In this document: piece after piece, positions 16,189-22,780 of the stretch
Layout: the number at the start of each line of letters is the position of its first letter
Numbering within the stretch: the first letter of the stretch is position 1
Assembly: GCA_019240125.1 (NCBI GenBank)
Contig: JAFAYW010000109.1
Span: 1 to 64,000 of the forward strand
DNA length: 64,000 nt
Source: Alphaproteobacteria bacterium
Lineage (GTDB): Bacteria > Pseudomonadota > Alphaproteobacteria > ATCC43930 > CGMCC-115725
Direction of reading: 5' to 3'
The notes under the pieces: generated by a model
What the model was told of the DNA's origin: nothing
What the model saw: only the letters and a program-made list of their open reading frames with translations
Database searches by the model: none
Program-made: the position numbers and the translations under genes

Positions 16189-16869
16189 CTATTGGATGGT
16201 ATACTGGAAGTAGAACGGCACGTTGCGCACGTAATTCACAAGGAAGTCGTTCAACGATCCAAGCACCGTCTGCGGAACATACACGACGTCATAGGATTTG
16301 AGTAGCGGGTCCTGCCCGCCGGCCCCGGCGAAATTGCCGAGCGAAACCTCGTAATAGAAGATCTTGTTGTCCGACGAGCGGCGCAGGATCAGCACATCGT
16401 CGGTATGCGCGCCGCTCTTGACGCCGCCGGCCTGAGCCAGGGCGCGCGACACGGTCAGCGGCACGTCGCTTCGGACCAGCCCGGGATTGTTGACCCAGCC
16501 ATCGACAAAAATCTCCTGCGGCGCGTAGGTCCGCAATGTCACGGTCAGGTTCGGGTCTTTGATGACCTGGGCGTAACGCTCGTTGAGCAATTTGGTCGCT
16601 TGGCCGACGGTCAGCCCGCCCACGGTGACGCTGTTGACCATCTGCAGCGAGAGGCGCCCGTCCGGCCCGACCAGAACGCGATCGTTGAGATCGGGATAAT
16701 ACGGAAAACGGACTTCGATCTCGTCATTTGGCGCGAGCGTGTGCTCGTCGGTCACCGGAACGCCGCCTGGAAACACCGCTGGCCCCTCCAGGCTGGGCCC
16801 GGACGGGGCGCATCCGCCGAGCGAGGCGATCGCCAGAAGGGCAATCCCGAACAGCCAACCGAGCCTCAC
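16189..16869 (-). CDS. Wza-type polysaccharide export lipoprotein
   Basis: A 226-residue exported lipoprotein. The signal peptide MRLGWLFGIALLAIASLGGC ends in a lipobox with Cys20. The Poly_export domain starts at LAPNDEIEVRFPYYPDLNDRV, followed by SLBB-type segments (APQEIFVDGWVNNPG, then VSRALAQAGGVKSGA). Family members form the outer-membrane channel through which the polymer leaves the cell. It is shorter than E. coli Wza (about 380 residues), in line with compact alphaproteobacterial forms. It is the first gene of the wza-wzz-ATPase-cpsD run; the region 16870-16955 would hold its promoter. Confidence 0.88.
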   Translation of the reverse strand: MRLGWLFGIALLAIASLGGCAPSGPSLEGPAVFPGGVPVTDEHTLAPNDEIEVRFPYYPDLNDRVLVGPDGRLSLQMVNSVTVGGLTVGQATKLLNERYAQVIKDPNLTVTLRTYAPQEIFVDGWVNNPGLVRSDVPLTVSRALAQAGGVKSGAHTDDVLILRRSSDNKIFYYEVSLGNFAGAGGQDPLLKSYDVVYVPQTVLGSLNDFLVNYVRNVPFYFQYTIQ

Positions 16870-18712: not shown

Positions 18713-19063
18713 TGATCGGTTAGCCTTCTATTACACGAACCGAACAAAAACCGGAAAGTGCTCCTTCACCGCCTCACCCGCTCTTGATGTAAGCTGGAGG
18801 AGATAGGGTGCGGGTTCATCGCGAACCAAGGCCTCGCGTGTCGCGCCACCCGCAGTCATCAGACTGTTCTCGGTCGTGCTCGCGCGGTTGCTCGACACAG
18901 CAACAACTGATCGCGCACGCAGACGCGGCAGCAAGCTAGTCAACATTGTAGGAATACCCGTCTATTTTGATGGTTAACCTAAGATGTTCACCATCTTTTC
19001 ACGAAGTCGATTGTCTCGGTCGGGATCAGGTCTGTCGAAAGAGCATGCCCTTTGTTTTATGCC
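18713..19063. other. 351-bp divergent intergenic region with likely promoters
   Basis: Separates the minus-strand sugar transferase from the plus-strand gamma-glutamyltransferase, so it should carry promoters in both directions. The part from about 18955 is clearly more AT-rich than its surroundings. It includes an imperfect GATGGT...ACCATC inverted repeat (18969-18995) followed by TTTT. A 71-codon frame (18731-18946, minus) has no ribosome-binding site or recognisable motif and is not called. Confidence 0.4.
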
Positions 19064-20755
19064 ATGAACGTAAAGTGTGTATTAATCGCAGCCAGCATCT
19101 TCGCGGTTCCCGTTCAGAGAGCACTCGCGGGGCCGCAGGAGACGCTCGGCACGCACGGCATGGTCGCCACGGCTCAGGCCGAGGCGAGTGCCGTCGGACA
19201 GCGAATCCTGGCCGCCGGCGGCAACGCGATCGATGCCGCGGTGGCGGTGGGATATGCGCTGGCGGTGGTCGAACCGTGCTGCGGCAACATCGGCGGCGGC
19301 GGCTTCATGCTGGTGCATCGTCCGGGGTATGACGACAAGGTAATCAACTTCCGCGAGAAGGCACCGCTGGCCGCCACCGAGACGATGTATCTCGGCACGG
19401 CTGGCGATCCTTTGCGTGACGCTAGTCTGTACGGGTATTTGGCGGCCGGCGTCCCCGGCACTGTAATGGGGCTTGATCGCGCGGAGAGCGAATTCGGCCG
19501 GCTCGGCCGCGAGGCGGTGATGCAGCCATCGATCGCCCTCGCCCATGATGGCTTTGTGCTGAGCGAGTCCGATGCGGCCACACTTGCGGCCAAGGCGCAG
19601 CGCCTGGCCCAGGACCCGGCGGCCGCGCGAATATTTCTTCACGCCGATGGTGCGCTCTATCGCGCAGGTGAGCGCCTGGTACAGTCCGACTTGGCCCACA
19701 CTCTCGGATTGATCGCGGAACGCGGACCTGCCGCGTTCTATCGCGGACCGATCGCGACCAGCATGGTTGAAGCGGCAGCCCGAAATCACGGTGTATTAAC
19801 GCAGCAGGATTTGGCGGCATACACAACCACGGAAGACGCGCCGGTCACCTGCGACTACCATGACTACCACTTTATATCCGCACCACCGCCGAGTTCCGGC
19901 GGCACCGTGTTGTGCGAGATGCTCGAAATTGTCGCAGACTGGCCGCTGTCCCGATTGGGCGCGCGGACGCCGCAGACGGTGCATCTGATGGCGGAGGCTA
20001 TGCGGCAGGGTTTTCGTGATCGCAACACTGTTCTCGGCGATCCCGCCTTTGTCCCCGACCGCCACGCCGAGTTGTTATCGGCAGCGCATATCGATGTAAT
20101 CCGCGCTGCGATCGATCCGGCCAGAGCAACACCAACCGTCGCGCTTCCTGCCGAAAGACAACCGCGTGAACAACCGCAGACGACGCATTATTCTGTTGTA
20201 GATGAAGAAGGAAACGCGGCATCCGTCACTTACACATTGAACGGAAATTTTGGTGCCGCCGTGGTGCCGCCGGGTACCGGTTTCCTGCTTAACAATGAAA
20301 TGGATGATTTTTCAATAAAGGCCGGTGTCGCCAATCTATTCGGACTACAGCAGGGCGCCGCGAATGCTATTGCACCGGGTAAGCGACCGCTTTCATCGAT
20401 GACGCCGGTAATTGTCGAAAAAGGCGGGAAGCCCCTGCTTGTTGTGGGAAGCCCCGGCGGACCAAGAATCATCACGACCGTATTCGAGACGATACTCAAC
20501 ATCATCGATTTCGGGATGACACCGGGTGAGGCGGTGGCGGCACCGCGATTTCACCACCAGTCACTGCCCGACACGCTTTACTACGAACGTGGCGCGTTTA
20601 CGTCAGAAACAATCGACAGTCTTGCGGAGCGAGGCTACCACCTGACCGAGCAGTCGCATTGGGGCGGGGTCGAACTGGTCGCCATTGGACCGAACGGCGA
20701 GATGATCGGTGTCAACGACCCTCGCCGTCCGGGCGGGGCCGCGCTCGGCAACTGA
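19064..20755 (+). CDS. ggt: Gamma-glutamyltransferase (glutathione hydrolase), periplasmic
   Basis: An Ntn-hydrolase precursor that cleaves or transfers the gamma-glutamyl group of glutathione. From ATG 19064 it has 563 residues; the N-terminus MNVKCVLIAASIFAVPVQRALA is a Sec signal peptide ending in an AxA-like site. Self-processing should occur before Thr373, the first Thr of TTHYSVVD, which becomes the catalytic N-terminus of the small subunit. Other family signatures are GGNAIDAAVAVGYALAVVEP, GNIGGGGFM, PPSSGG and the SSMTP and GSPGGPRI stretches. A TTG at 19052 is a possible but less likely start. It is monocistronic, ending just 9 bp from the convergent selenoprotein gene. Confidence 0.93.
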   Translation: MNVKCVLIAASIFAVPVQRALAGPQETLGTHGMVATAQAEASAVGQRILAAGGNAIDAAVAVGYALAVVEPCCGNIGGGGFMLVHRPGYDDKVINFREKAPLAATETMYLGTAGDPLRDASLYGYLAAGVPGTVMGLDRAESEFGRLGREAVMQPSIALAHDGFVLSESDAATLAAKAQRLAQDPAAARIFLHADGALYRAGERLVQSDLAHTLGLIAERGPAAFYRGPIATSMVEAAARNHGVLTQQDLAAYTTTEDAPVTCDYHDYHFISAPPPSSGGTVLCEMLEIVADWPLSRLGARTPQTVHLMAEAMRQGFRDRNTVLGDPAFVPDRHAELLSAAHIDVIRAAIDPARATPTVALPAERQPREQPQTTHYSVVDEEGNAASVTYTLNGNFGAAVVPPGTGFLLNNEMDDFSIKAGVANLFGLQQGAANAIAPGKRPLSSMTPVIVEKGGKPLLVVGSPGGPRIITTVFETILNIIDFGMTPGEAVAAPRFHHQSLPDTLYYERGAFTSETIDSLAERGYHLTEQSHWGGVELVAIGPNGEMIGVNDPRRPGGAALGN

Positions 20756-20764
20756 ATTCCGGCC

Positions 20765-21709
20765 TCAGGGGGTTCCGGCGGCGACGCGGGCGCGTGTCAT
20801 CTTGGCAACGTCCTTGGTGTGGTCAAACTCCGCGCGGCGGCGCGCGATCTCCTCTGGTGACAGCTGCGCGATGTTCGAGTAGTCGCGTTTCCACGACACC
20901 TCATCGTTCCAGCGAAGCGGGTTCTGCACCGTGGTGCGCGCCGCCGGAGCCGTTTCGAGCAGTCGCAAGGCGAGCGCCAGGGTGAAATCCTGCGACTCCA
21001 CATCGTGCGGCCGGCCCGCTGGGTTACCGAGCGGGAAGTCACTGAACAGGAAACGCGGTACGCCGACATACTCGACGATATCCTTGGCACAGCCGAGAAC
21101 CACGGTCGGGATGCCGTTCGCTTCGAGATGACGGGCAGCCAGACTCACGGTCTGGTGGCACACCGGTCAAACGGCGAGGAGAACGACCGCGTCCAGTCTG
21201 TCGGCCTGCGCCCGCTTCAGCAATTCGGTGCAATCCTGCTGCAGCGTCACTCGGTGGCTGCGATTGGTTGGCGCACCGTAGAAGAACGGAGCCAACTCGC
21301 CGATGCCGCCCGCCGCCGCGGCGCGACGCATCGCAGGCAACGGGAACCAGCAGGCGCTGTCCGTGGCGCCGGTGTGGACGCGGTCATAAGCGATGTGAGA
21401 GATGCGCAGATCGTGCTCGGCAGCGGTGTCACCGGAATAGACGGTGAAGAACTTGGCGGCACCGTTATGAGGTGCACCCGGGCCCTGATCACCCGCCTGT
21501 GGCTTGAAGGGCGCCGCGGTCGTGACCAGGCCGACGCGGCTTTCCGCTACCGGCTGCTTCATCGGGGTAAACGGCACATCGGCGTAATGCGCCCAACGAT
21601 AGGGCGCGCCGTAGCCGAGCCCCTGATAGTAATCATGGATGCGCCTCAGGTAGGGAATCGGCACATCCTCGTCCGACGCAAAGCCGAACTCGTCCTCAGC
21701 ATCGCTCAT
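20765..21709 (-). CDS. GrdB-type selenoprotein with UGA-encoded selenocysteine (Sec181)
   Basis: Two frames that would otherwise be split (21709 to 21167 and 21163 to 20765) are the same reading frame, interrupted only by TGA at 21169-21167. Read through, they give 314 residues with the motif AV-U181-P-V-C184-H185-Q. This is the UxxCH redox motif of the glycine/sarcosine/betaine reductase selenoprotein B family, and homology continues on both sides (YGAPTNRSHRV before; GIPTVVLGCAKDIVEYVGVPRFLFSDFPLGNP, given in part, after). The start ATG 21709 has GGAG six bases upstream. A SECIS-like hairpin follows the TGA. It is shorter than clostridial GrdB (about 435 residues) and no grdA/grdC genes are near, so classical glycine reductase is unlikely; reaction unknown. 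It lies 13 bp after a cupin gene. Confidence 0.85.
21139..21169 (-). promoter_or_regulatory. UGA-Sec codon with bacterial SECIS-like hairpin
   Basis: TGA at 21169-21167 is followed in the mRNA by the 6-bp hairpin CCAGACCGTGAGTCTGG (21155-21139): stem CCAGAC/GUCUGG and loop CGUGA. The loop guanine is its second base and lies 19 nucleotides after the UGA. This agrees with the described bacterial SECIS pattern: a hairpin directly downstream, inside the coding region, with a G among the first two loop bases about 16-37 nt from UGA. It would recruit SelB. selA, selB, selC and selD are not in this window. Confidence 0.75.
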
Positions 21710-21722
21710 CGGCGGCTCCGCC

Positions 21723-22121
21723 TCAGCCGGCGGTCTTGAAGTATTCTATGTCGTGCGGCTTGGGCTGCCACGCCGGGTTGCTCGGCCATTCCTTGGTGCG
21801 CCCGGAGAATTCCTCGCCATACCGCACCCGGAACAGCAGTGTCCGCTTGGGCCCGGTGATCCATTCGTGCAATTCGCCGCGTGGATGGACGACAAAACAG
21901 CCCGGCTTGACATCAATCGTTTCGGTTGGGGTGCGCATCGTGCCGCCGCCCTCGAAGCAGAAATACAGTTCGACGGCGTTTGGGTGGCAATGATAGGGGC
22001 TTACCTGTCCCGGTTCCCAGCACGCCACGGTCACATCGCCTTCACCCGCCTTGCCGAGGATTTTCTCGACATGGTGCGCGGGGTCGAATTTCTCCTCGGC
22101 CTTGAGATCGAATGCCAGCAT
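21723..22121 (-). CDS. Cupin protein, likely operon partner of the selenoprotein
   Basis: A 132-residue single-domain cupin. Cupin motif 1 is SPYHCHPNAVELYFCFEGGG (His and Glu metal ligands) and motif 2 is KPGCFVVHPRGELHEW (further His). The C-terminal GRTKEWPSNPAWQPKPHDIEYF is specific to a subgroup of cupins I recognise only as hypothetical. It ends 13 bp before the selenoprotein start on the same strand, which suggests one transcript and a linked job, perhaps binding a metal or the substrate of the selenoenzyme; that is inference. Confidence 0.8.
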   Translation of the reverse strand: MLAFDLKAEEKFDPAHHVEKILGKAGEGDVTVACWEPGQVSPYHCHPNAVELYFCFEGGGTMRTPTETIDVKPGCFVVHPRGELHEWITGPKRTLLFRVRYGEEFSGRTKEWPSNPAWQPKPHDIEYFKTAG

Positions 22122-22192: not shown

Positions 22193-22780
22193 TCACGAGC
22201 CACGGCTTACAGTGCTGGCGGGTCTTGTATAGGCCCAGATTTGCGCCGGCGGCAGGTTGCGCCATACACGCCGGGCCTCCATCCCCGCGATCCCGAGGCT
22301 ATGGGTTGCGACGGGCGAGACAAAACCGTTGGTCACCTGCAAAAACTTGCCTGCCGGGCCGAGCAGATCGAGGCACGGCAATACCACGGCGCGCTGCGCT
22401 TCGAGCGAAAACCATTTGATCGGCAGGCTCGACACCACCGTGGCGAGCCTGGTCACTCCATGTGCGGCGAGCGCCCCGGCGATTTTGGTGGCGTCGGCTT
22501 CCAGCACCGTCACTGTGCGGAACGAGCGCCGCAACACACGAGCCAGGGCCGGCTCGCGCTCGAGGATGATCAGCCGCTCGGGCCGGCAGCCTGCGCGCAG
22601 CAACCCCTCGGTCAGGCTGCCTGTGCCGGCACCGAGTTCGAGAACCGGTCCCGGCCGTCGCAGATCGGTGAGGCCGGCAAAGGCGTCCGCCAGAAAGCGG
22701 CTGCTGGGATAAACCGACGCGATGCTCAGCGGCTTGCGCAGCCACAATCCGAAAAACAACCCAGCCTCAGGGCTCATCAT
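22193..22780 (-). CDS. PmtA-like SAM methyltransferase (phospholipid N-methyltransferase family)
   Basis: A 195-residue class I methyltransferase. FGLWLRKPLSIASVYPSSRFLA matches the conserved opening of the PmtA/rRNA-dimethylase-like group. The SAM site is VLELGAGTGSLTEGLL with acidic ILERE in strand 2 and VLEADATKI in strand 3; the catalytic region is VVSSLPIKWFSLEAQ. Family members methylate phosphatidylethanolamine stepwise toward phosphatidylcholine at the membrane surface, common in alphaproteobacteria. The ATG at 22780 (or 22777) is used. It is followed after 71 bp by the cupin-selenoprotein pair and could share its transcript. Confidence 0.75.
   Translation of the reverse strand: MMSPEAGLFFGLWLRKPLSIASVYPSSRFLADAFAGLTDLRRPGPVLELGAGTGSLTEGLLRAGCRPERLIILEREPALARVLRRSFRTVTVLEADATKIAGALAAHGVTRLATVVSSLPIKWFSLEAQRAVVLPCLDLLGPAGKFLQVTNGFVSPVATHSLGIAGMEARRVWRNLPPAQIWAYTRPASTVSRGS

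Follow-up and report, generated by a model that had tools for sequence, protein, structure and literature searches.

PrdB, the 26-kDa selenocysteine (Sec) subunit of D-proline reductase, and GrdB, which with GrdF and GrdH represents protein B of glycine, sarcosine and betaine reductase (PF07355, TIGR01917/01918), operate together with a pyruvoyl subunit. Sec-containing relatives of PrdB are already known: 'PrdB' selenoproteins have been recorded since 2005 from the Sargasso Sea metagenome (42 Sec and 1 Cys sequences; PMC1088965) and were also reported from the GOS metagenomes (235 Sec and 110 Cys sequences; PMC2398784), where the Sec form with its UxxC motif is among the commonest selenoproteins of both surveys. 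The stand-alone alphaproteobacterial branch described here is an additional member of these relatives, and no paper on it was found in the open-access literature, outside which most subscription journals lie. The marine 'proline reductase PrdB' resembles it in Sec/Cys exchange, UxxC motif and assignment to pfam07355 (PMC1088965, PMC2398784); these sequences come from marine metagenomes, and the likeness to the alphaproteobacterial subfamily is by description only.

The locus lies within a 64-kb stretch of DNA, the whole of which is here called the window (Table 1). If TGA is read as U, the frame 21709-20765 (-) translates into 314 residues, of which one internal residue, number 181 in the motif V-U-P-V-C-H-Q, is U; the frame closes with a TGA at 20767-20765 (-). 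This agrees to the base with the sequence-only reading, which had described the frame as whole except for one TGA at the U of a UxxCH motif. The same reading had expected standard annotation to break the gene, and ORF calling does yield one piece of 180 aa (21709-21167) and another of 132 aa (21163-20765, with a GTG start), cutting the gene at its active-site residue. The nearer homologues are 62-74% identical and cover almost the whole length of the protein. No relative was found in the viral contigs searched, and neither Rfam (at gathering thresholds) nor ARAGORN gave a match within the window.

Table 1. Features of the PrdB-like locus in the window
Feature	Position	Strand	Remarks
Predicted PrdB-like selenoprotein gene	20765..21709	-	314 aa, Sec at residue 181; frame open but for one internal TGA
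UGA codon, predicted selenocysteine (U181 of UPVCHQ)	21167..21169	-	Homologues have TGA or Cys codons only
Predicted bacterial SECIS hairpin, stem CCAGAC/GTCTGG, loop CGTGA	21139..21155	-	Covarying stem; loop kept and pairs compensated in Sec forms only; fits bSECIS model
Cupin_2 protein, adjoining the selenoprotein gene upstream	21723..22121	-	PF07883, E 2e-9

At the site aligned with U181 the residue is U or C and nothing else (compared in 24 Sec and 80 Cys sequences, all distinct), which answers the proposal of the sequence-only reading to look for Cys or Sec at this position. Within the GTDB family, 18 of 39 genomes carry relatives. Among 80 named genome contigs the site holds Cys in 74 and TGA in six (three other pattern matches were unrelated frames and were left out). 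In a sample of 398 genomes across the phylum 17 matched, own genome included, mostly with Cys; two Sec forms in this sample share one genome of the same class and another family. The genome that carries the window has four members of the family, located in the window, on contig C47 (74% identity) and on contigs C322 and C236, and in each of them a single TGA occupies this site. Two subfamilies can be told apart by their motifs, UPVCHQT and UPLCTRA. The genes on C322 (L135:3437) and C236 (L136:8259) both have Sec, belong to the UPLCTRA subfamily and carry the hairpin GCGCGC-CGTGA-GCGCGC, and Sec is the sole form of that subfamily among the sequences studied here.

The hairpin past the UGA consists of the arms CCAGAC (21155-21150) and GTCTGG (21144-21139) around the loop CGTGA (21149-21145). 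It begins 11 nt past the TGA; counted from the A of the TGA, the loop G comes at 19 nt, and 17 nt separate the UGA from the loop. The 6-bp stem, the CGUGA loop and the distances of 11 and 19 nt had been given in the sequence-only reading. The bSECIS model (quoted in PMC13188914) asks for a loop of 3-9 nt, a stem of 4-16 bp, an MFE <= -7.5, a G within the first two loop positions and a UGA-to-loop distance of 16-37 nt, and here we find a loop of 5 nt, a stem of 6 bp, an MFE of -15.1, the G of CGUGA at the second position and a distance of 17 nt. Folding of the mRNA past the UGA, also proposed earlier, gave -15.1 kcal/mol for a 50-nt stretch with z = -0.65, ordinary for its composition; a single sequence is therefore no proof of the hairpin, and comparison is needed.

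The comparison of 19 distinct Sec sequences shows 98.2% of the cells paired and both sides changed in four of the six pairs, counts that are not independent, being largely one difference between the subfamilies (CCAGAC/GTCTGG vs GCGCGC/GCGCGC). The covariation score of the stem among these sequences is 0.66, against 0.26 in shuffles (0/500 reach it), and the covariation is lost when partners are slid by one to three columns. Additional change beyond the subfamily difference is seen in the stem TCAGAC/GTCTGA of locus L207, and in L214 (CCAAAC/GTTTGG) the pair is kept via two silent codon changes, CAA for CAG and TTG for CTG. The full 6-bp stem occurs in 22 of 24 distinct Sec forms but in only one of 80 distinct Cys forms, and the loop CGTGA in 22/24 and 3/80, respectively. 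In addition, every one of the 24 Sec forms has GTG as the Val codon of the loop, while among Cys forms with Val retained GTC is used 17 times and GTG five times. Sequence comparison, then, shows the predicted hairpin just past the UGA to be an RNA element that goes with the Sec form.

Selection was compared on the two sides of the TGA against the C47 paralogue. Before the TGA we obtained dN 0.20 and dS 1.21 (dN/dS about 0.17), and after it dN 0.14 and dS 0.77 (dN/dS about 0.18). As the ratios are alike, the downstream part is constrained as protein in the same way as the upstream part. The assembly is a MAG, Cys homologues are common and TGC or TGT is one base away from TGA, so that the TGA might be put down to a random nonsense mutation of a Cys gene, or to a sequencing error. 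However, the TGA recurs at the same codon in many genomes and in three other genes of the same genome, purifying selection is equal past it, and the SECIS element goes with TGA and not with Cys; a pseudogene or error has next to no probability. It is also conceivable that the UGA is a true stop and that the GTG at 21163 starts a second, separate polypeptide, since the 132-aa ORF begins only three bases past the stop codon. This GTG, however, is a conserved Val codon within the active-site motif, the motif is part of one unbroken chain in the Cys homologues, and two polypeptides would leave the hairpin unexplained, which makes such an arrangement exceedingly improbable. We conclude from the sequences that the gene almost certainly encodes a selenoprotein whose internal UGA is read as Sec. 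The sequence-only reading had likewise taken it for a real selenoprotein and not a broken gene, and this is borne out by the site that holds only TGA or Cys codons, the hairpin tied to Sec, the constraint past the TGA and the decoding machinery.

A working Sec machinery had been predicted from the gene, and its components were all found in the genome (G000; 6.27 Mb in 372 contigs, 99% complete): selD, selA and selB are consecutive on contig C225, and one tRNA-Sec with the anticodon UCA is located on contig C371. The SelB of C225 clusters with SelB proteins of the same genus, and C225 is therefore probably no contaminant; the estimated contamination of 6.5% means that contigs could be foreign, and the genus grouping covers the SelB of C225. 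Across the GTDB family 20 genomes have SelB evidence, and 12 of these carry a Sec form, versus two of the 19 without, a split counted from match lists in which truncated SelB fragments were accepted if they fell inside the SelB tree. The two Sec-form genomes without SelB evidence are 74 and 77% complete.

Among named families the protein is closest to PrdB (TIGR04483, E 9.6e-20, 71 bits vs a cut-off of 300), followed by the GrdB family (TIGR01917, E 1.2e-11, also below cut-off), while its PF07355 score of 18.9 is just under the gathering score of 22. It shares 28% identity over 201 aligned residues with PrdB of Terrisporobacter, including the UxxCH motif with a Sec aligned to U181, but differs from PrdB in length (314 aa vs 241 aa), in scoring far below the family cut-off, in lying outside any prd operon and in that no PrdA partner was found. 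With GrdB, GrdF and GrdH it has the C-terminal half and the Sec motif in common, but the N-terminal part of the profile is missing from it and GrdE was not found in the genome. RefSeq entries from Roseomonas and Haematobacter named 'glycine/sarcosine/betaine reductase selenoprotein B family protein' are 50-64% identical over the length and have the same motif, with Cys in place of Sec; the literature searched yielded no paper that names this RefSeq family. The earlier description as GrdB-like is to be refined, as PrdB comes ahead of GrdB with all scores below cut-off. Nor should the GrdB/betaine reductase B label be taken for its function, since the genome search showed no partner of the PrdA/GrdE type.

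Homology to PrdB and the aligned Sec are what a functioning subunit of D-proline or glycine/betaine reductase, as the family names imply, would have in its favour. But the scores lie far under the equivalog cut-offs, and PF09338, which covers the pyruvoyl partner (PrdA/GrdE-type), was not found in this 99% complete genome, although the identical search matched the prd plasmid of Terrisporobacter (NZ_CP117524) as a positive control; PF04723 (GrdA) also gave no match in the genome, in a search without positive control. Such a functioning subunit is consequently very unlikely. In its motif the protein resembles a PrdB-type selenol protein. The low scores and the missing PF09338 partner suggest a stand-alone PrdB-related protein that is probably no subunit of proline or glycine reductase.

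In genus g1 the cupin gene adjoins the PrdB-like gene on its upstream side at seven loci (the window, G021, G022, G023, G025, G026 and G027). Outside the own genome this cupin is 72-90% identical, and it accompanies both Sec and Cys forms; the C47 paralogue has no cupin beside it. The Cupin_2 protein upstream is a probable co-transcribed partner of the PrdB-like gene. A CoA-transferase III gene is found directly downstream in 52 of the 123 loci with room for it, mostly close Bradyrhizobium and partly duplicated loci, so that they represent few independent lineages. They include Bradyrhizobium, a MAG of Acetobacteraceae (L119) and the Sec forms L054 and L207. The C47 paralogue has a CoA-transferase III about half a kilobase downstream, and none is adjacent to the window gene itself. 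Two neighbours in the window were rejected as partners, a gamma-glutamyltransferase (19052-20755, +) and a methyltransferase (22193-22780, -), as neither is kept beside the homologues.

An AlphaFold model of the protein is of moderate confidence (pLDDT 63). In its better part a strand (174-178) precedes residue 181 and a helix (182-197) follows it. Searching the PDB by sequence gave nothing meaningful, and searching it by fold with this model gave no match at E <= 0.001.

From what is known of bacterial Sec decoding, SelB carrying Sec-tRNA would bind the hairpin and Sec would be inserted at U181. The UxxCH motif and the homology suggest that the selenol of U181 may form a redox pair with Cys184 (a selenenylsulfide), or alternatively that it may serve as the nucleophile by which a small substrate is reduced. 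In either case the selenol chemistry would proceed without the pyruvoyl partner needed by the proline and glycine reductases. Judged from sequence, a redox role of the protein is perhaps to be expected, and we consider it fairly likely. An organic-acid catabolic route is hinted at by the cupin and, outside this lineage, by the CoA-transferase III; that the gene belongs to a small route of this kind is perhaps possible, yet rather doubtful. Also rather doubtful, and offered tentatively, is the proposal of a distinct alphaproteobacterial subfamily, pyruvoyl-independent and linked to a cupin or to CoA-transferase III, that might carry out an undescribed selenol-dependent step in organic-acid breakdown. 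Sec and Cys users among the alphaproteobacteria, many Bradyrhizobium included, have the family in common, and the Cys form would thus be accessible in a genetically tractable organism. Moreover, a PrdB-type selenoprotein may exist outside proline reductase, and counts of 'PrdB' in metagenomes would then be no proxy for proline reduction.

The survey also gave several observations on other Sec-related genes. Two full-length SelB proteins, 41% identical, are encoded in the genome of the window (L134:3917-5866 on C225 and L133:11946-13913 on C153); G005 and G008 likewise have two, and the SelB proteins of the family split into separate clades. Near the second selB on C153 there is a formate dehydrogenase alpha gene (L133:16070-19408) with an in-frame TGA at 16820 (ARI-U-HSS) and the hairpin loop AGUCU. 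A division of labour, with one SelB for CGUGA hairpins and the other for the AGUCU hairpin of formate dehydrogenase, is unsupported, because a Sec formate dehydrogenase with the loop AGUUU is encoded in genomes that have the C225 type alone (e.g. G006, 98% complete), and a CGUGA hairpin is present in G031, whose SelB is solely of the other type. Nor do the SECIS loop types sort cleanly with the SelB clades. In G007 (L174, contig C305) a formate dehydrogenase alpha match above the family cut-off has one internal TGA; matches as strong as this one in other genomes have no internal TGA. Finally, the Cys homologue of Roseomonas haemaphysalidis (L018:8881-10353) adjoins a gene for the SelO adenylyltransferase.
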